A stretch of 64,000 nucleotides of DNA, taken from NCBI GenBank assembly GCA_026400835.1, contig JAPLOA010000077.1:62001-126000 (forward strand), written 5' to 3'. Every line of letters begins with the position of its first letter. Position 1 is the first letter of the stretch. Positions 45,772 through 54,581 of this stretch are shown here, piece by piece. This DNA comes from Planctomycetales bacterium (GTDB taxonomy: Bacteria; Planctomycetota; Planctomycetia; Planctomycetales; Planctomycetaceae). Both the position numbers and the translations under genes were made by a program. The notes under the pieces are model-generated. The model was given only the letters and a program-made list of their open reading frames with translations. It was not told the origin of the DNA and did no database searches.

Positions 45772-47301
45772 ATGAAACTCACATCATTTCAATGGATGGC
45801 AGCAGGTTTAATGCTGTCAGCAGCCGGAGTTGGGGCCAGCATCCATTATGGATCATCGCCAGCCATTGCTGGAACGACGATCAAATGGACGGATACAACG
45901 GCCAGACAAAAAGAAGTCGGCGATCACGCAGTTTCACACAACTACGCGAAGTCACTTTCGGGGGCCTTTCGAGAAGCCTCGGAAGCAGTGATGCCATCGG
46001 TTGTCACTATTCAGTCGATGTCGTCGAAACCTGCGGGGATGGGCCAACACGGCCGGATCCCGGAGGAACTTAAAGACAATCCGCTGTTCAAACAGTTCTT
46101 CGACAACATGCCACAAGAACAGTCGGAAGGGAAGAGTGAACCTCAGCGAACTGGCATGGGCTCCGGAGTCATCGTCGATTCAAGTGGCATCATTCTGACC
46201 AATAACCATGTGGTCAAAGATGCGGACAAGCTCCTGATCAAATTGCATGACGGGCGAGAATTCGAAGCGACGGAATGGAAGACAGATCCGAAGACAGACA
46301 TCGCTGTGGTTCGAATCGACACCAAAGACAGTTTGCCAGCCGCCGTTATTGGCAACAGTGATCAGCTCAACGTCGGCGACTGGGTGATTGCTGTCGGAGC
46401 ACCTTTCGGACTTGATGAAACCGTCACCGCCGGCATCATCAGCGCGAAGGCTCGTGGAATTGGTATCACGGCTCGTGAAGAGTTCCTGCAAACCGATGCG
46501 GCGATCAATCCTGGTAACAGTGGTGGACCGCTGGTGAATCTGGATGGGCAGGTGATCGGTATCAACACAGCGATTTCCAGTACAAGTGGCGGATATCAGG
46601 GCATTGGTTTTGCTGTTCCCGTCAACCTGGCTCGCTGGGTGGGAGATGAATTGATGGCTCACGGAACCGTTCAGCGAGCGTTTCTCGGAGTCGGAATTCA
46701 ATCGATCGACAGTACTCTGTCAAAACAACTGGGACTGGATACCGTCCGAGGAGCAGTCGTTACGGATGTCAGAGCCGGGAGTCCTGCGGCCAATGCCGGA
46801 CTACTTAGCGGAGACGTGATTCTGGAGTTTGATGGGACGTCGATCACGAAACCAGCAGATCTTCAGGGACGCGTTGAACGAGCTTCACTGAAGGATGTTC
46901 ACAAGGTTGTGGTTCTGCGAGATGGCAAGAAGATGTCGATTGACGTTCGAGTCGAAGCAATGCCAACAACGGTGTCTGCTGCGGAACCAACGAAGGCTGA
47001 GAAATCAACATCTTCAGAGTTCAATGGACTGGGACTTCAGTTGTCTGATCTCACGCCAGATGTCGCAAGTCAATTGGGAATGTCCGATGTCAATGGAGTC
47101 GTGATCACCGGTATTAAGCCAGGTAGTCCGGCCGCCAATGCTGGACTCGAAGATGGCATGGTAATCCGCAAGGTTGGCAAGACATCAGTTAAGTCGGTCA
47201 CCGAGTTTGGTGATGCCGTGAAGGAGTTCAAACCTGAAGATGGAGTGCTGATGCTCGTGCAGGCCGGCGAGAGTTCTCGATTTGTGGTGGTGCAAGGGTA
47301 A
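45772..47301 (+). CDS. degP: Periplasmic serine protease, DegP/HtrA (Do) family
   Basis: A 509-residue protease/chaperone of envelope quality control. Signal/anchor segment at the N-terminus (WMAAGLMLSAAGVGASI); trypsin-like domain with catalytic triad His146 (LTNNHVV), Asp176 (KTDIAVV) and Ser250 (NPGNSGGPL); two PDZ domains (from about residue 305, and from about 415 with GVVITGIKPGSPAANAGL). The gap between PDZ domains is Ala/Lys/Ser-rich. GGGAGAG precedes the ATG. Expression is probably driven by the sigma-54 promoter at 45656 under the neighbouring two-component system. Confidence 0.95.
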   Translation: MKLTSFQWMAAGLMLSAAGVGASIHYGSSPAIAGTTIKWTDTTARQKEVGDHAVSHNYAKSLSGAFREASEAVMPSVVTIQSMSSKPAGMGQHGRIPEELKDNPLFKQFFDNMPQEQSEGKSEPQRTGMGSGVIVDSSGIILTNNHVVKDADKLLIKLHDGREFEATEWKTDPKTDIAVVRIDTKDSLPAAVIGNSDQLNVGDWVIAVGAPFGLDETVTAGIISAKARGIGITAREEFLQTDAAINPGNSGGPLVNLDGQVIGINTAISSTSGGYQGIGFAVPVNLARWVGDELMAHGTVQRAFLGVGIQSIDSTLSKQLGLDTVRGAVVTDVRAGSPAANAGLLSGDVILEFDGTSITKPADLQGRVERASLKDVHKVVVLRDGKKMSIDVRVEAMPTTVSAAEPTKAEKSTSSEFNGLGLQLSDLTPDVASQLGMSDVNGVVITGIKPGSPAANAGLEDGMVIRKVGKTSVKSVTEFGDAVKEFKPEDGVLMLVQAGESSRFVVVQG

Positions 47302-47433
47302 CTGTTTCCCGAACAAGAAATCTGTTAGCCTCAATCAGGGTCGGCACTGAGTTTCTTTCCAGGGATCGGTGCTGGCAATTTCCGGATGACTGATCTGATA
47401 ACCTGCAGGACCCGCCCGCGGGTTCGTTGATAA

Positions 47434-47484
47434 GTAAGCCGACATGATGGACGCCGCAGGGCGTTTCGTCACGTCGGCTTTTTT
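47434..47484 (+). promoter_or_regulatory. Leader hairpin family, copy A (before the P-type ATPase)
   Basis: GTAAGCCGAC (47434-47443) pairs with GTCGGCTT (47473-47480), followed by six T residues starting at 47479. The inner stem GACGCC/GGCGTT continues the hairpin. It ends about 57 nt before the ATPase start at 47541 and more than 130 nt after the protease stop, so it belongs to the leader of the ATPase rather than to the end of the protease transcript. The 60 nt upstream share blocks with copy C (GGCAAT...CGGATGACT). Confidence 0.65.
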
Positions 47485-47540
47485 GTTGGCCGTATCTTGC
47501 TGCGTTTGCGAATTCACCAGCTCTTTTCAGGGACAAAACA

Positions 47541-50207
47541 TTGACCGGCTCCACACTGTTCCCGAAAAGATTATTTGCCTCGATCCGTCGCGAGAAGCCG
47601 CAAGTCGACGCGTCGCAGAGATTAATCGAAGCCGCGACGCTGGATGCCGAAGGAACCTGCCGGCTGCTGAAGACCAGCACCAGTGGACTCAGCGAACATG
47701 CGGCGCGATTCAGGCTCAAGCAATATGGCCCCAATATCCTCGCGGCTGACGCTCAGGGCGGATTTGGCAGGATTCTGCGTCACGCGGTCTTCAATCCGCT
47801 CGTGATGCTGCTGGCATCGCTGGTGCTGGTTTCGTTTATCACGGGCGATATTCGAGCCGCCACAGTGATGTCGGCGATGATCGTGCTCGGTGTCGGTCTT
47901 AATCTGCTGCAGGAAGGTCGAGCCAGCAAGGCCGCAGCAAAACTGAAGGCCATGATTTCGCTCACAGCGACCGTCGTCCGAAACGGGCAGCCGCAGGAGA
48001 TTTCGATCTCTCAATTGGTGCCCGGAGACATCGTGCAGTTGGCCGCTGGAGATATGGTTCCCGCCGATCTTCGCCTGCTGGTCGCGAAAGATCTGTTTGT
48101 CATGCAGAGCTCTCTCACGGGCGAAAGTTTACCGGTCGAGAAATTCGAAACGGAGAAGGCGATCGCAAGTCATGTCGCAGTCGAACTCACTTGCGTTGCC
48201 TTTCTTGGCACCAGCGTGGAAAGTGGCTCGGCGACCGGTGTCGTTGTCGCGACCGGGAAAGACACGTATCTCGGCGGTATGGCCGAAACATTGTCGGAAC
48301 AGCCGGAAGAAAGTGCCTTCGACAAAGGCATTGCAAAATTCACGTGGCTGATACTGCGATTTGTTCTCGTGATGGTTCCGCTGGTGTTCTTCATCAACGG
48401 ATTTACCAAAGGAAACTGGTCGGAGGCCTTCTTCTTCGCGATCGCAGTAGCCGTCGGCCTGACGCCGGAAATGCTGCCGATGATCGTTACCGTCTGCCTG
48501 TCTCAGGGTGCGTTAGCCATGAGCCGTCAGAAGGTGATCGTGAAGCGACTCAATGCGATTCAGAACCTTGGAGCGATGGATGTGTTGTGCACCGACAAGA
48601 CCGGGACACTCACCATGGACCAGGTGATTCTTGAACGCCACTGCGATATCGTGCTGAAGGAGAGTGATGATGTCCTGGCTCTGGCCTACATGAACAGCCA
48701 TTTTCAAACCGGCCTGAAAAACATCCTCGACCGCGCTGTGCTGGCCCACGTGGAAACTCACGATCATGCCAGAATTCCGGAATACACCAAGGTCGACGAG
48801 ATCCCGTTCGACTTTCAGCGTCGCATCATGTCCGTTGTCGTGCGAACTCCTGAGAACAAGGACCGCATCATCAGCAAAGGCGCGCCGGAAGCCATCTTTC
48901 CTCGGTGTGCCGAGTTCGAACTGGCCGGGCAGCGGCTGCCGATGGACCATGCTCATATCGAAGAGCTGAAGAAGGAGTACGAACGACTCTCGGCTGATGG
49001 ATTCCGAGTTCTCGCGATTGCCAGCAAAGACATCGCTCCACGAGGTATCGTCGCCGGGGATTCAACGCCTTACACGAAAGACGATGAAGCCAGTCTGACG
49101 TTGAAGGGTTACGTGGCGTTTCTTGATCCGCCGAAAGATTCTGCCAACGCGGCCCTCAAAGCTCTGCAGGCCCACGGGATCTCGGTGAAGGTCGTCACCG
49201 GGGACAATGAACTCGTTGCAAAGAAGATCTGCAAAGAGGTTGGACTGGCCACCGATTTTGTTCTGCTGGGCAGCGATGTCGAAGCCATGTCCGACGTGCA
49301 GCTTGCGGATGTTGCGTGGAAGACAACGTTGTTTGCTCGTGTTTCCCCGACGCACAAACAGCGAATCATCAAGGCTCTGCAATCTCAGAAGCATATCGTC
49401 GGCTTCATGGGAGATGGCATCAACGATGCTCCGGCGCTGCGAACGGCCGATGTCGGGATCAGTGTCGACACCGCTGTGGATATTGCCAAAGAATCGGCCG
49501 ATCTGATCCTGCTGGAAAAATCCCTGATGGTTCTGGAGGCTGGCGTCGTCGAAGGTCGCAAAGTCTTCGCCAACATACTGAAGTACGTTCGCATGGGAGC
49601 CAGCAGCAACTTCGGCAATATGTTCAGTGTGCTCGGGGCGAGTATTTTTGTGCCGTTCCTGCCGATGTCTCCGATTCAGATTCTTGCGAACAATTTGCTG
49701 TACGACATCAGCCAGACCGCGATCCCAACTGACAACGTGGATGCCGAGCAGATCACGAAGCCACGGCCGTGGGACATGCAGCAGCTGACTCGATTCATCG
49801 TGTTCATCGGGCCTTGTTCGTCGTTGTTCGATTTCACGACGTTCTTCATCATGCTCTACGTCTTCAAATGCTGGGATACGAGCACACCCGAAGCTGCGGT
49901 TCACAGCACTCGGCTGTTTCAGACCGGCTGGTTTGTTGAGAGCCTGTTAACTCAGACGTTGATCATTCACATCATCCGGACGAACAAGATCCCGTTCCTG
50001 CAGAGCTGGCCTTCCTGGCCGCTGCTTGTCATGTCCGCAACCATTATGGCCATCGGAGTTGCCATCCCCTTCACCGTGCTCGGCGACTATCTCGGTTTTA
50101 CTCAACTTCCCACGCTCTACTGGCCTTTATTGGCCATATCACTTCTTGCCTACATCGTGATCACGCAGTTGCTGAAAATGTGGCTGTTGAAGAGAAGCTG
50201 GATTTGA
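47541..50207 (+). CDS. mgtA: P-type ATPase, MgtA-like (magnesium importer type)
   Basis: An 888-residue P3B-type ATPase. Order: N-terminal cation ATPase domain; actuator motif LTGES; DKTGTLT phosphorylation site with the catalytic Asp at about residue 350; KGAPEAIF in the N domain; TGDN; and MGDGINDAPALRTADVGISV hinge, with about ten membrane helices. MgtA-type landmarks include GLTPEMLPMIV in helix 4 and DNVDAEQITKPRPWD near the C-terminus. TTG start at 47541 with AGGGA upstream. The leader carries hairpin copy A. A role in Mg uptake under stress fits the neighbours, but ion specificity is inferred. Confidence 0.9.
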   Translation: MTGSTLFPKRLFASIRREKPQVDASQRLIEAATLDAEGTCRLLKTSTSGLSEHAARFRLKQYGPNILAADAQGGFGRILRHAVFNPLVMLLASLVLVSFITGDIRAATVMSAMIVLGVGLNLLQEGRASKAAAKLKAMISLTATVVRNGQPQEISISQLVPGDIVQLAAGDMVPADLRLLVAKDLFVMQSSLTGESLPVEKFETEKAIASHVAVELTCVAFLGTSVESGSATGVVVATGKDTYLGGMAETLSEQPEESAFDKGIAKFTWLILRFVLVMVPLVFFINGFTKGNWSEAFFFAIAVAVGLTPEMLPMIVTVCLSQGALAMSRQKVIVKRLNAIQNLGAMDVLCTDKTGTLTMDQVILERHCDIVLKESDDVLALAYMNSHFQTGLKNILDRAVLAHVETHDHARIPEYTKVDEIPFDFQRRIMSVVVRTPENKDRIISKGAPEAIFPRCAEFELAGQRLPMDHAHIEELKKEYERLSADGFRVLAIASKDIAPRGIVAGDSTPYTKDDEASLTLKGYVAFLDPPKDSANAALKALQAHGISVKVVTGDNELVAKKICKEVGLATDFVLLGSDVEAMSDVQLADVAWKTTLFARVSPTHKQRIIKALQSQKHIVGFMGDGINDAPALRTADVGISVDTAVDIAKESADLILLEKSLMVLEAGVVEGRKVFANILKYVRMGASSNFGNMFSVLGASIFVPFLPMSPIQILANNLLYDISQTAIPTDNVDAEQITKPRPWDMQQLTRFIVFIGPCSSLFDFTTFFIMLYVFKCWDTSTPEAAVHSTRLFQTGWFVESLLTQTLIIHIIRTNKIPFLQSWPSWPLLVMSATIMAIGVAIPFTVLGDYLGFTQLPTLYWPLLAISLLAYIVITQLLKMWLLKRSWI

Positions 50208-50498
50208 ACCTCAAACAGACCGGAACAGGAGATCTTAATTATCGGTTGTCTAATCCTGGAGATTCGCTGACACCACAACTGCCGTCACTGCGACGCGTTT
50301 AAACCTTTCGAGAAACTCTCGACGGCAATCTGTGAATTACCCACAATTCCAGCAGATGGTGCTCATTGGTGTTGCTAATCTTGCTCATATCGTGAAGATC
50401 GGACCGTCACAGCAGCACATCGTGTTTGGTGACAATATCTCAGGTCGTCGGACGACCCCAGAAATGGCAGTTCAAATGTGAGCCGCCAGTTTTCAGGT
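50208..50498. other. Long leader/intergenic stretch before the stress membrane protein
   Basis: About 290 nt with no gene. It includes a small hairpin CGAGAAACTCTCG at about 50319 and GTCGTCGGACGAC at about 50444, the latter a possible partner of the GCCGAC arm of the following leader hairpin. No sigma-54 site found. Confidence 0.4.
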
Positions 50499-50548
50499 AA
50501 GCCGACGTGATCGAATACTTTCGAGTATTCGGTCACGTCGGCTTTTTT
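50499..50548 (+). promoter_or_regulatory. Leader hairpin family, copy B
   Basis: AAGCCGACGTGA (50499-50510) pairs with TCACGTCGGCTT (50533-50544); the inner stem CGAATACT/AGTATTCG closes on a TTCG tetraloop, giving about 20 bp in all, then a run of T. It ends about 27 nt before ATG 50575. Outer arms are identical to copies A and C over 8 bp; inner arms differ in sequence but pair. As an intrinsic terminator it would be very strong, yet it lies about 290 nt past the previous gene. Confidence 0.75.
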
Positions 50549-50574
50549 TATGCCCCAAAGAAAGACGTGTTCTG

Positions 50575-51138
50575 ATGAAAAAGCCAAACGTAAAGATCGA
50601 CCGCCACATGAATAGTGTGATCGCGACGTTCAGTACTCACACGTTGGCCGAGGATGCTGTCAAACATCTGGCAGACGCCGGCTTTGATATGAAGCTGCTG
50701 TCCATCATTGGCAAAGGATATCACTCCGAAGAAAACGTCGTGGGCTATTACAACGCCGGCGATCGCATGTTGTACTGGGGCACCCAGGGAGCCTTCTGGG
50801 GCGGATTCTGGGCGCTGTTGTTTGGGTCAGGATTCTTTATTGTGCCGGGAATTGGACCGCTGCTTGTGGCTGGTCCCTTCGTGGCTGCACTCGTCGGAGC
50901 CCTCGAAAGCGCGGCGGTGGTGGGTGGATTGAGTGCTCTCGGAGCGGCGTTGGTCAGTGTCGGGATTCCGAATAACAGCATGGTGCAGTACGAAGGCTGC
51001 ATCAAGTCCGGACAGTTTCTGATGGTGGCTCATGGAACTCCGGAAGAAGTCGAACGAGCAAAGGAACTGCTGAGCACTTCCGGGGCGACCAAAGCGGAAT
51101 TGTTTCTGGTTGAGGAACCTGCCGTGGCGGTAGCCTGA
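50575..51138 (+). CDS. General stress protein 17M-like membrane protein
   Basis: A 187-residue protein. The N-terminal ~60 residues (VIATFSTHTLAEDAVKHLAD, AGFDMKLLSIIGKGYHSEE) form the YflT/GSP17M-type ferredoxin-like domain, followed by two glycine-rich membrane helices (ALLFGSGFFIVPGIGPLLVA, FVAALVGALESAAVVGGLSA) and a C-terminal domain. Homologues are typically induced by general stress. It is preceded by leader hairpin B and followed by dps. Family call from domain layout. Confidence 0.75.
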   Translation: MKKPNVKIDRHMNSVIATFSTHTLAEDAVKHLADAGFDMKLLSIIGKGYHSEENVVGYYNAGDRMLYWGTQGAFWGGFWALLFGSGFFIVPGIGPLLVAGPFVAALVGALESAAVVGGLSALGAALVSVGIPNNSMVQYEGCIKSGQFLMVAHGTPEEVERAKELLSTSGATKAELFLVEEPAVAVA

Positions 51139-51144
51139 TACTTT

Positions 51145-51217
51145 GTCAGGACAGGAATCGTACGTTGGACATTCTTGTCCGACGTCCATGCGACGGGCAG
51201 GAATGCCCATCCTGACC
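51145..51217. repeat. Short inverted-repeat cluster
   Basis: GTCAGGACAGGAAT (51145-51158) and a mirrored CATCCTGAC near 51217 enclose GGACattcttGTCC (51167-51180) and GGGCAGGAATGCCC (51195-51208). Several overlapping palindromes built of GGACA/TGTCC units resemble small interspersed repeats. There is no T-run; it sits just after the stress-protein gene. Confidence 0.5.
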
Positions 51218-51331
51218 AATGCTGACGAAGCACAAGTCAGCAACCGGATTTCATTGGGTTTACGCCAAATAGAGCCGCCTGTGGCTTGCCGTTAAACAAG
51301 TTCATTTCATCTCTTTAAAGAATTTTCTCGT

Positions 51332-51853
51332 ATGAACACATCTATCTCTATTGTGGCTGATCCCAATCAGATGTACGAAACGGAGAATGATATTCCGCTT
51401 TTGCGTCGTACGGCTTTGAACGTGCTGATGAACCAGCGATTGGCGTCGGCTATCGATCTGCAATTGCAGTTGAAGCAGGCTCACTGGAATGTCAAAGGTC
51501 CAAACTTTATCGGCCTGCATGAATTGTTCGACAAGGTCAGTGAAGCGATCGAACCGTATGTGGACATGATTGCCGAACGTATCGTGCAGCTGGGAGGAAC
51601 AGCCGAAGGAACGATTCGAGGCGCTGCGAATCGTTCAAGGCTGACCGAGTATCCTTCGAGCATTGGCGATGGTTCCGCTCACGTCGATGCGGTGGCTCAT
51701 GCGTTGTCAACGTTTGCTTATGAATCCCGCAACACGATTACTGAAGCCGATGAACTGGAAGACGCCGTGACGGCCGACCTGTTTACCGAGGTAACTCGGG
51801 GCATTGATAAGTGGCTGTGGTTTGTAGAAGCTCATCATCAGGCCACGAAGTAG
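51332..51853 (+). CDS. dps: Dps-family DNA-binding ferritin-like protein
   Basis: A 173-residue Dps: dodecameric ferroxidase that stores iron and protects DNA in starvation or peroxide stress. The ferroxidase signature spans QLKQAHWNVKGPNFIGLHEL then FDKVSEAIEPYVDMIAERI, with the His, Asp and Glu ligands of the inter-subunit site. The N-terminal tail is short. It sits between the stress membrane protein and the decayed exporter. A terminator-like hairpin follows at 51926. Confidence 0.95.
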   Translation: MNTSISIVADPNQMYETENDIPLLRRTALNVLMNQRLASAIDLQLQLKQAHWNVKGPNFIGLHELFDKVSEAIEPYVDMIAERIVQLGGTAEGTIRGAANRSRLTEYPSSIGDGSAHVDAVAHALSTFAYESRNTITEADELEDAVTADLFTEVTRGIDKWLWFVEAHHQATK

Positions 51854-51925
51854 GTTGTGGTCGGCTGCGATTCGGTTTAACGGCAAGCTGAAGCCGTCAG
51901 TGTCTCGCCTTGTTGAGCAAATCAG

Positions 51926-51950
51926 CCGGAACGCGTTAGCGTCCGGTTTT
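51926..51950 (+). terminator. Probable terminator after dps
   Basis: CCGGAACGC (51926-51934) and GCGTCCGG (51939-51946) form a GC-rich stem with one bulge around GTTA, followed by TTTT. It is located about 70 nt after the dps stop. Confidence 0.6.
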
Positions 51951-52045
51951 CGCTGCAAAAATTCTGCAAAAAAATCGGGGCCAACGCACTGCGGCTGATG
52001 AATCGCTAAACGATGATAGCCGTCCTCAAAGATCTCACGACATGA

Positions 52046-52424
52046 CTCAAGGGCAGCTATTTGGCACTCGCCGTCGGTACGTTGATCGTTGTGATGTTCT
52101 CGACGGGCTTTGGGCTGTTCGCTTCGACATTCACAAAAAGCCGGATTGCGGCACTCTTTGCAACGATTTTCGGAACGATGATTCCGACCGTTCAGTTTGC
52201 CGGACTGATCAACCCTGTTTCGTCACTTGAAGGTGTTGGTGCGATCATTGGTCGCATGTATCCGGCGTCTCATTTTCTGATCATCAGTCGTGGCGTGTTC
52301 AACAAGTCGCTCGGATTTTTCAGTCTCAGCTCATCATTTCGGCCCATGATGCTGGCCCATGATGCTGGCCGTGCCAGTAATTCTTGGTGTGTCTGTTCTG
52401 TTGCAGAAGAAACAGGAGACGTAA
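52046..52424 (+). pseudogene. C-terminal remnant of an RbbA-type ABC exporter
   Basis: The frame from about 52050 reads YLALAVGTLIVVMFSTGFGL, FASTFTKSRIAALFATIFGT, MIPTVQFAGLINPVSSLEG and HFLIISRGVFNKSLGF, which is the final membrane portion of RbbA-type (ABC-2) proteins. The ATP-binding domains and the rest of the gene are missing. A 13-bp tandem duplication (GGCCCATGATGCT at 52341-52353 and 52354-52366) shifts the frame; without it the protein would end MMLAVPVILGVSVLLLQKKQET at TAA 52424. The next gene's ATG lies 5 nt beyond, as in intact operons. Confidence 0.85.
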
Positions 52425-52428
52425 CCTC

Positions 52429-53547
52429 ATGTCACGCGCGAGCAACATCGATCGACTGGGCACGAAAGAACTACGGAGCCTCACAGGAGATCCGATCCTG
52501 CTTAGTCTGATCGTCTACACGTTCAACTTCTCGATTTGCATTTCCGCCACCGCCAAACCAGAAACTCTGCATAACGCGCCGATTGCGATCGTGGATGAGG
52601 GTGATTCACCATTGTCGGCCATTATGATTTCGGCATTCTGCCCGCCGCGATTCAAGTCGCCCCGGATGATCACTCAGGCCATGATTGATGGCGGAATGGA
52701 TACCGGAGACTTTACGTTTGTGGTGGACATTCCCCCGGGACTTCCAACGTGATGTTCTGGCGGGCAAGTCCCCGGCGATTCCATTGAACGTGGATGCGAC
52801 AGGAATGAGTCAGGCCTTTGTCGGCAGCAGCGACATCCAGCAAATGGCGATGGATGAAGTCAATGAGTTCACTCAGCGAGGCAAAGGTACGACACCGGCC
52901 GCCATAGGGCTGGCACTTCGGGCTCGCTTCAATCCCAATCTCGAGCAGGCCTGGTTCGGCTCACTCATGGAAATCATCAACGTAACAATGTTGTCGATCA
53001 TCCTGACAGGAGCCGCGCTGATTCGGGAACGCGAACACGGAACCATTGAGCATCTGCTGGTCATGCCGGTCACTCCTGCAGAAATCATGCTGGCGAAGGT
53101 TTGGTCGATGGGGACGGTGGTGCTGCTGGCCGCCGGGCTTTCGCTGGTCTTTGTTGTGCAGGGGCTCATCCGAGTTCCGATCGAGGGCTCTGTCAGTCTT
53201 TTTCTTGTCGGGACGGCCCAGCATTTGTTTGCGACCACCTCTCCGGGAATCTTTATGGCGACGCAGGCGAACTCCATGCCGCAGTTCGGAATCCTCGCCG
53301 TTCTCGTGATGATGCCACTCCAGCTATTGTCAGGCAACGCGACACGTCGCGAAAGCACGCCGGACTTTATTCAGAATTTGATGCTCATCGCACCAACGAC
53401 GCATTTTGTGGCGATCGGTCAGGCCATTCTTTTTCGAGGAGCCGGGTTTGCCGTCGTCTGGCCATCATTCGTCGCGCTGCTGCTCATTGGCGGGGCTTTC
53501 TTATTGCCCTGAATCGGTTCCGCAAGTCTATCAGTCAGATGACCTGA
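52429..53547 (+). pseudogene. YhhJ-type ABC-2 permease with two frameshifts
   Basis: Starts at ATG 52429 (MSRASNIDRLGTKELRSLTG) and is homologous throughout to YhhJ-type ABC-2 permeases. The first frame breaks at 'DIPPGLPT-stop' (52752). One extra C in the CCCCC run near 52735 explains it, because the next frame continues PRDFQRDVLAGKSPAIPLNV, then LTGAALIREREHGTIEHLLV and LMLIAPTTHFVAIGQAILF. A second break near 53500 (one missing base) turns the expected tail IALNRFRKSISQMT into a premature stop at 53512. Two small indels could be sequencing errors, but with the damaged partner gene decay is likelier. Confidence 0.85.
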
Positions 53548-53920
53548 TCGAATGGTCTGCATCGGTTCTGCTCGAGCAGATCGGTGGCAACGGTAAGACT
53601 TCAACTCTCGGCCAGCCGTAGACGAATGGATTATCGTCAGAGTCAGGCAAGCTCGCTCGCCATTTTTCAACAGTGTTTATGAAGCGTAGTTATGAAAGAC
53701 ATTTAGGTCGGGAGATGAAGCTGTTCATCATCAGAATAAGCTTCACTATTACTTATTATGATTAAGTCGAAGAATACAATGCAGAGTCGGGTTGTTAATG
53801 TTTCGACGGCGGTTACTATGCAGGACCGAGATGAGTGGCGAGTACCACTTATCGCGGGCAATAATTTCGGATGACTAAATAAATCGCAAACCAGTTCTCT
53901 GCTGGCGGGCGAATTTACGA
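53548..53920. other. Intergenic/leader stretch before hairpin copy C
   Basis: No gene seen. An AT-rich patch (53735-53790) and the blocks GGGCAAT...CGGATGACT (53857-53876) shared with the leader of copy A are present. Confidence 0.4.
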
Positions 53921-53976
53921 GTAAGCCGACATGGACTGAATCTTCAATTGAGGATTTAGTTCATGTCGGCTTTTTT
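53921..53976 (+). promoter_or_regulatory. Leader hairpin family, copy C
   Basis: GTAAGCCGACATG (53921-53933) pairs with CATGTCGGCTT (53962-53972), followed by six T residues in total. The inner stem ACTGAATC/GATTTAGT holds with one G-U pair. It ends about 48 nt before GTG 54024 and over 370 nt past the previous gene. The outer 8 bp are identical to copies A and B; the inner stem is different but paired. Confidence 0.7.
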
Positions 53977-54023
53977 CGTTGCGCTTCGCATCAGCGTGGC
54001 CATCGAATGAAAGGAACTCTCTC

Positions 54024-54284
54024 GTGAGTCAGATTTCTACGTGGATTGGTCGCTGGTGGGCTTGGCCCGAAAAGACATTGACCAGACGCAACGCGCAGCC
54101 GTTCGCTTTTCGCCTGCGAGTGGATCCAACGCTGATGAATCCGGGTGCCCCAGGCATGAGCTGCACGGCACTGGAATTCAGGCGGATCAGAGAAAGCAAT
54201 GGTACTGAGCCTGCGACGAGGACTCTTGTTCGCTCATGCGTGGCCGGCCACACCGTGAAGATTTTGCTCCTGAAGCATGCATGA
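54024..54284 (+). CDS. Small hypothetical protein behind leader hairpin C
   Basis: An 86-residue frame from GTG 54024 with AAAGGAA 8 nt upstream, reading MSQISTWIGRWWAWPEKTLT. The N-terminus is Trp-rich and amphipathic; the C-terminus is basic. No family recognised. The good ribosome binding site and the leader support translation. It lies 93 nt upstream of csrA. Confidence 0.45.
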   Translation: MSQISTWIGRWWAWPEKTLTRRNAQPFAFRLRVDPTLMNPGAPGMSCTALEFRRIRESNGTEPATRTLVRSCVAGHTVKILLLKHA

Positions 54285-54377: not shown

Positions 54378-54581
54378 ATGTTAGTTTTGACACGGAAGAA
54401 AGCGGAATCGATCGTCGTCTTTCGTTCAGACGGCCACGACTCCGGGATCAGAATTGTTGTGCTGGAGATCTCAAAGGGAATCGCAAAGCTGGGGATCGAA
54501 GCTCCTCCCGATGTTTCTATTCATCGAATGGAAGTTTGGGAACGAATCAAAGAATCCCACGCGGCCTTAAAGGCGTCGTGA
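54378..54581 (+). CDS. csrA: Carbon storage regulator CsrA
   Basis: A 67-residue RNA-binding translational regulator: MLVLTRKKAESIVVF, then IRIVVLEISKGIAKLGIEAP with the RNA-contact Leu/Val residues, and VSIHRMEVWERI. The loop between strands 1 and 2 is a few residues longer than in E. coli CsrA (FRSDGHDSGIRI). GGAGG is ideally placed 6 nt before the ATG. CsrA binds GGA motifs in mRNA leaders; targets are not known here. Confidence 0.93.
   Translation: MLVLTRKKAESIVVFRSDGHDSGIRIVVLEISKGIAKLGIEAPPDVSIHRMEVWERIKESHAALKAS

Follow-up and report, generated by a model that had tools for sequence, protein, structure and literature searches.

A two-hairpin leader RNA with a predicted terminator/antiterminator exchange upstream of stress-related genes in planctomycetes

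In antitermination of the BglG/LicT type, a ribonucleic antiterminator (RAT) hairpin of ~30 nt carries purine internal loops and overlaps, with its 3' base, the 5' arm of an intrinsic terminator. ANTAR-responsive leaders contain two hairpins with a hexaloop signature, the second hairpin overlapping the terminator, and tandem copies are known for ligand-sensing leaders. To our knowledge, the switching of stress genes in planctomycetes is largely open. Here we describe a ~114-nt RNA element of two hairpins that occurs three times (copies A, B and C) in a 64,000-nt stretch of DNA from a Planctomycetales bacterium (GenBank assembly GCA_026400835.1, contig JAPLOA010000077.1, positions 62,001 to 126,000; hereafter the window). 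Each copy probably attenuates, in cis, the transcription of the gene or operon whose 5' leader contains it, often a stress gene. Attenuation was among the options raised in a preliminary description of the window, and it emerges as the best reading on three grounds: promoter-like boxes ahead of the copies, long open reading frames (ORFs) behind them and a conserved alternative pairing.

Like the RAT, the element has a purine-loop hairpin whose 3' base overlaps the 5' arm of a terminator, but the RAT is much shorter. With ANTAR-responsive leaders it shares two hairpins, the second overlapping the terminator; by contrast, its loops are variable and lack the hexaloop signature. It resembles transcriptional riboswitches in its leader position, alternative pairing and tandem copies, and differs from them in having no Rfam match (window and 12 loci) and in preceding genes that do not belong to one metabolite pathway.

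The corresponding proteins and known RNA families were searched for directly. BglG/LicT antitermination was set aside because the CAT_RBD domain occurs in 0 of 170 genomes of the window's family, compared with 4 of 14 control genomes. ANTAR antitermination is not general: of 12 genomes with the element, 2 encode the domain, and these two strong matches are the sole positive sign for the search, since the 14 control genomes gave none. Rfam 15 gave 0 matches in the window and, at E ≤ 1 in 12 loci with copies, only three microRNA matches, all under their gathering scores, so that a known Rfam family was also set aside.

The nearest lead is the Rhodopirellula-1 motif, which is tabulated as ambiguous as an RNA, probably cis-regulatory, present in Proteobacteria and Planctomycetes, and without an Rfam accession (Weinberg et al. 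2010, PMC2864571 Table 1). By this table description, the two are alike as candidate RNAs from Planctomycetes that are probably cis-regulatory and lack an Rfam accession; they differ in the ambiguous rating and the proteobacterial occurrence of Rhodopirellula-1, whereas the present element covaries strongly and 118 of 119 stretches among the matches listed carry planctomycete names. The table entry neither shows nor rules out their identity. Should they be the same RNA, the discovery of the motif belongs to the 2010 work (PMC2864571), and the switch, the regulon and the distribution are what is new here. We recognised no description of the element in the literature searched, the coverage of which falls short of most subscription journals. 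Apparently, the element is an undescribed, large family of RNA switches in planctomycetes.

The preliminary description had reported three hairpins with a common outer stem and a T-run, and we found all three where it had placed them: the arms AAGCCGAC/GTCGGCTT are present in every copy, each hairpin is followed by its T-run, and the octamer of the outer stem occurs 10 times in the window compared with a mean of 2.3 in shuffled sequence (0 of 100 shuffles get to 10). The inner stems do differ in sequence as described, and they mostly, rather than fully, pair in all three copies. The sequence blocks upstream of A and C, regarded as common to these two, are the beginning of a second conserved hairpin, and this hairpin is found in all of A, B and C. 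The hairpins first noticed thus form the 3' half of the element. We built a covariance model, R1, on six copies from this genome, including the three in the window, whose parts all lie on the + strand:

47374..47486, +: copy A, leader RNA, model positions 1-114 (R1 training copy; 88.5 bits, E 9e-22)
47382..47391, +: copy A, antiterminator 5' arm CCGG, AnG loop and P1 5' strand ACT (read from the sequence and pairing classes)
47389..47435, +: copy A, upstream hairpin P1-P4, ACT...AGT
47436..47484, +: copy A, terminator hairpin and T-run, the 5' arm doubling as antiterminator strand
47436-47443/47473-47480, +: copy A, arms AAGCCGAC/GTCGGCTT
50440..50550, +: copy B, leader RNA before the YflT/GSP17M-like gene (R1 training copy; 101.8 bits, E 2e-25)
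50448..50451, +: copy B, antiterminator 5' arm UCGG, partner CCGA at 50502-50505 (class-level folding result)
50499..50549, +: copy B, terminator hairpin and T-run
50499-50506/50537-50544, +: copy B, arms AAGCCGAC/GTCGGCTT
53859..53978, +: copy C, leader RNA before a small ORF and csrA (R1 training copy; 96.1 bits, E 7e-24)
53867..53870, +: copy C, antiterminator 5' arm UCGG, partner CCGA at 53926-53929 (class-level folding result)
53923..53976, +: copy C, terminator hairpin and T-run
53923-53930/53965-53972, +: copy C, arms AAGCCGAC/GTCGGCTT

In copy A, the antiterminator arm CCGG can form three of four pairs with CCGA at 47439-47442.

Across the 7.58-Mb genome, the pattern AAGCCGAC-N25..45-GTCGGCTT occurs at six places, each listed on both strands, and its backwards control at none. 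All six carry the upstream hairpin with at most 3 of 11 pairs missing; it begins with uCGGAnGACU (with variants) and finishes with AGU, or a paired variant, directly before AAGCCGAC. R1 revealed a seventh copy 384 bases past the end of the window, bringing the genome total to seven. The consensus reads uCGG-AnG-ACU..(P1-P4)..AGU-AAG-CCGAC, followed by the long terminator and U-run.

Both hairpins and their covariation are established at the level of the alignments. In an unfitted MAFFT alignment of the six copies, two-sided changes occur in 15 of 29 pairs. A larger alignment of 61 R1 matches (E ≤ 2e-11, 40 sources), from which we built a second covariance model, R2, shows two-sided changes in 29 of 34 pairs, and 89.8% of its cells are paired, compared with 75.6% after shuffling and 30-42% after sliding. 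This larger alignment leans towards structure, being fitted to the model and composed of related rows; the six-copy alignment serves as the unfitted check. For both alignments alike, 0 of 500 shuffles reached any of five covariation measures, and covariation is present in both hairpins. The proposal that RNA structure is under selection is therefore well supported.

The conserved unpaired bases are internal-loop purines, namely AnG/AAG, an A-G mismatch (119 of 150 copies) and an A/G-rich 2x2 loop. Conservation sets in sharply at UCGG, the eight model positions ahead of it holding 0.05-0.30 bits each (150 copies). Ahead of UCGG, folding predicts one more hairpin, variable in sequence and more stable than in dinucleotide shuffles (mean z -1.4, 203 leaders); we leave it out of the core, since close tandems offer no space for it in their second units.

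The conserved 5' CGG pairs with the CCG of the terminator 5' arm, such that UCGG lies opposite CCGA across the AnG/AAG loop (paired in 93.4% of cells in the 61 copies). CGG and CCG are each 95-100% conserved in a set of 150 copies (the best 150 of 162 matches, drawn from 100 of the 142 loci with distinct copies). In nascent RNAs cut just past CCGAC (n=150), the antiterminator forms with a median probability of 0.9985 and exceeds 0.5 in 98%, compared with ~0 in a slid control, and in the full-length RNA the terminator prevails over it. Followed along increasing RNA length in 80 copies, its probability, 0.99 at first, remains above 0.9 until the terminator 3' arm is nearly complete and then drops to 0.78, 0.51 and 0.03. 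Mean folding energies are -27 for the hairpin part and -56 for the whole RNA. These calculations, which describe equilibrium and not kinetics, predict that the two pairings replace one another. The three terminator CCG pairs show no two-sided change in the 61 copies (the pairs at columns 97-98 and 102-105 have 3-9 each), which fits a strand that serves two helices. A conserved alternative pairing that excludes the terminator is present, though two-sided changes are almost absent from it.

This arrangement suggests how the element may work. The predicted transcription start lies ~40-70 nt ahead of the element, and the nascent RNA would fold into the long hairpin P1-P4 with its conserved purine internal loops. 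UCGG, together with the CCGA of the terminator 5' arm, would extend the base of this hairpin and so form the antiterminator. Synthesis of the terminator 3' arm would let the terminator, by far the more stable of the two, reclaim CCGA, and RNA polymerase would halt before the gene. Because the full RNA with the terminator is far more stable, OFF is likely the default and ON would need an agent that holds the hairpin. Most likely, a stress-linked factor, either a protein or a small molecule, would bind the purine loops, keep the antiterminator and switch the gene ON; we infer both the termination and read-through in the cell and this direction of control. The element is a concrete target in the search for a novel riboswitch ligand or antitermination protein.

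The position of the copies between promoter-like boxes and long ORFs is apparent from the sequences surrounding them. For these comparisons, we drew 206 distinct copies from 225 matches above 50 bits, setting aside three truncated matches (L068, L108, L177) as well as nine rows that score below 50 bits; these nine lie mostly on the opposite strand and include at least one real copy (L096:5182-5300, also hit by the exact pattern). A high-scoring -10-like box lies at -85 to -46 in 136 of 194 copies, compared with 17 of 194 at -180 to -141, and a -10-like box plus a -35 box in 91 compared with 4 in the control region; the spacing is usually 16-17 nt, the boxes having been picked by score. Before GGA (198 copies), the counts of TAnnnT per 10-nt bin are 48, 50 and 63 between -80 and -51 and 7-24 elsewhere. 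A T-rich stretch behind the -35-like TTG (136 copies) is the sole unbiased part of the box signal and may mark a particular sigma factor or an activator common to the regulon. Downstream, a start codon that is preceded by a Shine-Dalgarno (SD) sequence, opens at least 100 codons and lies within 200 nt follows 87 of 183 copies (median distance 70 nt); the controls gave 23 of 176 for upstream sequence and 6 of 170 for the opposite strand. This strict test supersedes a first, loose one (145 of 206), which was only moderately above chance given its controls. In the window, the distances of 27-57 nt from hairpin to start codon proved correct (57, 27 and 48 nt to TTG 47541, ATG 50575 and GTG 54024), as did the remoteness of the preceding stops (the upstream ORFs end at 47301, 50207 and 53512 for A, B and C, respectively). 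A terminator within the 5' leader is a feature of the family as a group and need not apply to every copy.

Several observations weigh against the attenuator reading. A strict promoter consensus scan of the window returned none at the three copies and no overall excess (3 vs 4.1). No strict start lies within 200 nt of 96 of the 183 copies, and a looser SD-start test over the same distance is only moderately above chance (143 of 199 vs 107 +/- 8 in shuffles). The antiterminator helix shows no two-sided change in the 61 copies and one in the 150 (C-G once vs U-A 123 times), and 18 of the 150 lack its outermost pair; judged from the alignments, the UCGG-CCGA pairing is backed mostly by invariance rather than by double changes, which is its weak point. 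Finally, our searches found no ligand or protein partner.

If the copies were ordinary gene-end terminators or a dispersed repeat without a regulatory role, this would account for the strong hairpin and U-run, for up to 26 copies per genome among the matches listed and for their clustering, and a same-strand ORF of at least 100 codons does end <100 nt upstream in 51 of 206 copies. We consider this very improbable. Gene-end intrinsic terminators follow stops, often between convergent genes, whereas neighbours <1 kb apart are 9 divergent, 4 tandem and 0 convergent in a set of eight genomes (110 copies above 53 bits among the matches listed; weaker rows, two of them in G165 perhaps real, are left out). 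The conserved upstream hairpin, retained at every genome-wide site of the stem pattern, its covariation, the long ORFs downstream and the promoter-like boxes upstream likewise argue against it. Hits after gene ends without upstream structure were what the preliminary description had named as contrary to its proposal, and the attenuator reading survived this check. The copies might also be trans-acting, multi-copy small RNAs, in which case the terminated leaders (~170 nt if the predicted starts are right) would be the products and the neighbouring genes would use other promoters. Promoter-like boxes, a stable structure with its own terminator, 7-26 copies per genome (eight genomes, among the matches listed) and the roughly half of copies without a strict start within 200 nt would all fit. 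Where strict starts are present, however, their median distance often leaves little room for a second promoter, and tandem units 1-10 nt apart, as well as the conserved terminator/antiterminator overlap, are unexpected for a plain small RNA. We regard this explanation as improbable, although an attenuator may also yield a small RNA as a co-product.

A somewhat less improbable, though still unlikely, alternative is a special form of the attenuator, in which CsrA would bind the exposed CGGAnG 5' of P1, block the UCGG-CCGA pairing and force termination, repressing the operons and its own gene until stress lowers CsrA activity and opens them. An ORF resembling the window's CsrA occurs in 17 of 146 loci (0.99 Mb), in 17 of 17 on the same strand and downstream of the element, and in 13 of these 17 it begins at most 500 nt away. 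Of 97 CsrA matches in the eight genomes, 6 have a copy within 2 kb and are downstream of it on the same strand, compared with ~0.2 expected by arithmetic, and the leader GGAnG resembles the CsrA consensus core. This consensus has a GGAnG-like core with A at -2, and GGA is placed in hairpin loops, usually several. In the element, however, the -2 position is U in 131 of 150 copies, GGA is not enriched in predicted hairpin loops of the upstream leader (8 of 143 leaders vs 10.0 +/- 3.1 in shuffles), and the leader GGA is already accounted for by the pairing and the AnG loop. A canonical CsrA site in a leader hairpin is thus not supported, the single conserved GGA lying at the helix base. Moreover, the other 91 of the 97 CsrA matches are farther than 2 kb from any copy, and CsrA is present in 170 of 170 family genomes, the element in 52. 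Because csrA is downstream in all 17 loci, yet only 6 of 97 matches are close to a copy, we count it among the candidate regulon members and not as a proven regulator; such a link would tie transcription attenuation to post-transcriptional control. The family genomes hold 3 to 17 CsrA matches each, which seems many.

A covariance-model search of planctomycete genomes, the check first proposed for the three copies, uncovered a family far larger than these. R1 matched 24 of 59 genomes, our own included, at E ≤ 0.1, a threshold that admits weak matches. At E ≤ 1e-6, R2 had matches in 52 of the 170 genomes from the window's family, with as many as 22 in one genome, and in 94 of 397 genomes of a class sample; at E ≤ 1e-5, it had matches in 14 of 392 genomes of a phylum sample. 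Per-genome numbers from both models may include opposite-strand matches; weak ones (e.g. window 50493-50595, 40.5 bits) arise because the terminator is nearly palindromic. The spread is patchy, with the element in 6 of 18 genomes of its own genus. A strict DNA pattern found at least 119 stretches in species-representative genomes; the one stretch without a planctomycete name among the matches listed is named only 'bacterium'. Complete units also stand head-to-tail, 1-10 nt apart, in the manner of tandem riboswitches (G154:C210:1309-1543, G155:C133:14194-14432, G059:C2:216260-216492 and L162:7195-7427).

The common leader offers an immediate candidate regulon, in which any gene behind a copy is a possible member, many unknown proteins included. 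Behind the seven copies of the source genome lie genes for a P-type ATPase, a YflT protein, the small ORF with csrA, a zinc-binding oxidoreductase, an ArsR-type regulator (166 nt from its copy, together with an operon read as rhodanese-thioredoxin), a cysteine-rich protein without a Pfam match and a PAS hybrid kinase. We scanned 134 first ORFs of 152 candidates behind the 206 copies, leaving out 18 that exceeded ~1200 aa, were cut by contig ends, were near-duplicates or contained N; ORFs were chosen by length, and some are wrong frames. Gene families recur among their Pfam matches (25 of 115 families listed): MpsC (16), response regulator domains (9), histidine kinase domains (7), zinc-binding dehydrogenases (6), BON (5), P-type ATPases (5), KaiC (4), OmpA (4) and ice-binding (3). 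PAS kinases are also among the downstream genes, and in L053 a Dps-like gene, whose homologue in the window has a ferritin domain, lies directly behind a copy. Many downstream genes, though not all, match the expectation of stress genes, and many downstream proteins have no assigned role. MpsC matches number 36 in the eight genomes, and 26 of them have a copy within 2 kb; relative to it, 14 are downstream, 10 divergent and 2 upstream.

A bolder possibility, which we put forward tentatively and with some doubt, is that RNA carries the wiring of a stress response throughout the phylum Planctomycetota. A single attenuator, answering one stress signal by way of a novel aptamer type or a novel antitermination protein, would co-regulate MpsC, KaiC-like proteins, PAS kinases, ion pumps and Dps-like proteins, along with a linked csrA paralogue that would add a second RNA-based layer; the element would do so from up to ~26 copies per genome, in tandem and also phage-borne.

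A phage contig in IMG/VR (IMGVR_UViG_3300032397_001619) encodes a terminase large subunit (4.7e-90), a portal protein (7.4e-33) and an integrase (6.2e-39). At L210:2306-2943 (- strand), it also contains a full leader copy (93.2 bits) followed by an MpsC gene (8.8e-34). This phage, probably temperate, seems to carry an MpsC gene with its RNA switch.

The remaining features around the window copies, all on the + strand, are two candidate promoters, picked by eye and absent from the strict consensus scan list, and the genes downstream:

47541..50207, +: P-type cation ATPase, first gene past copy A (Pfam E1-E2_ATPase 1.1e-43)
50366..50393, +: candidate promoter of copy B, TTGGTG-N16-TATCGT
50575..51138, +: YflT-domain (GSP17M-like) stress protein (Pfam YflT 1.4e-07)
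53792..53819, +: candidate promoter of copy C, TTGTTA-N16-TACTAT
54024..54284, +: 86-aa ORF between copy C and csrA, without a Pfam match
54378..54581, +: csrA (Pfam CsrA 5.5e-19)

An ORF resembling the 86-aa ORF also lies behind a copy in one relative (locus L060). Upstream of copy C, positions 52061-53512 of the window hold an ABC-2-type membrane protein region spread over several overlapping frames, which by eye looks like one or more broken genes.

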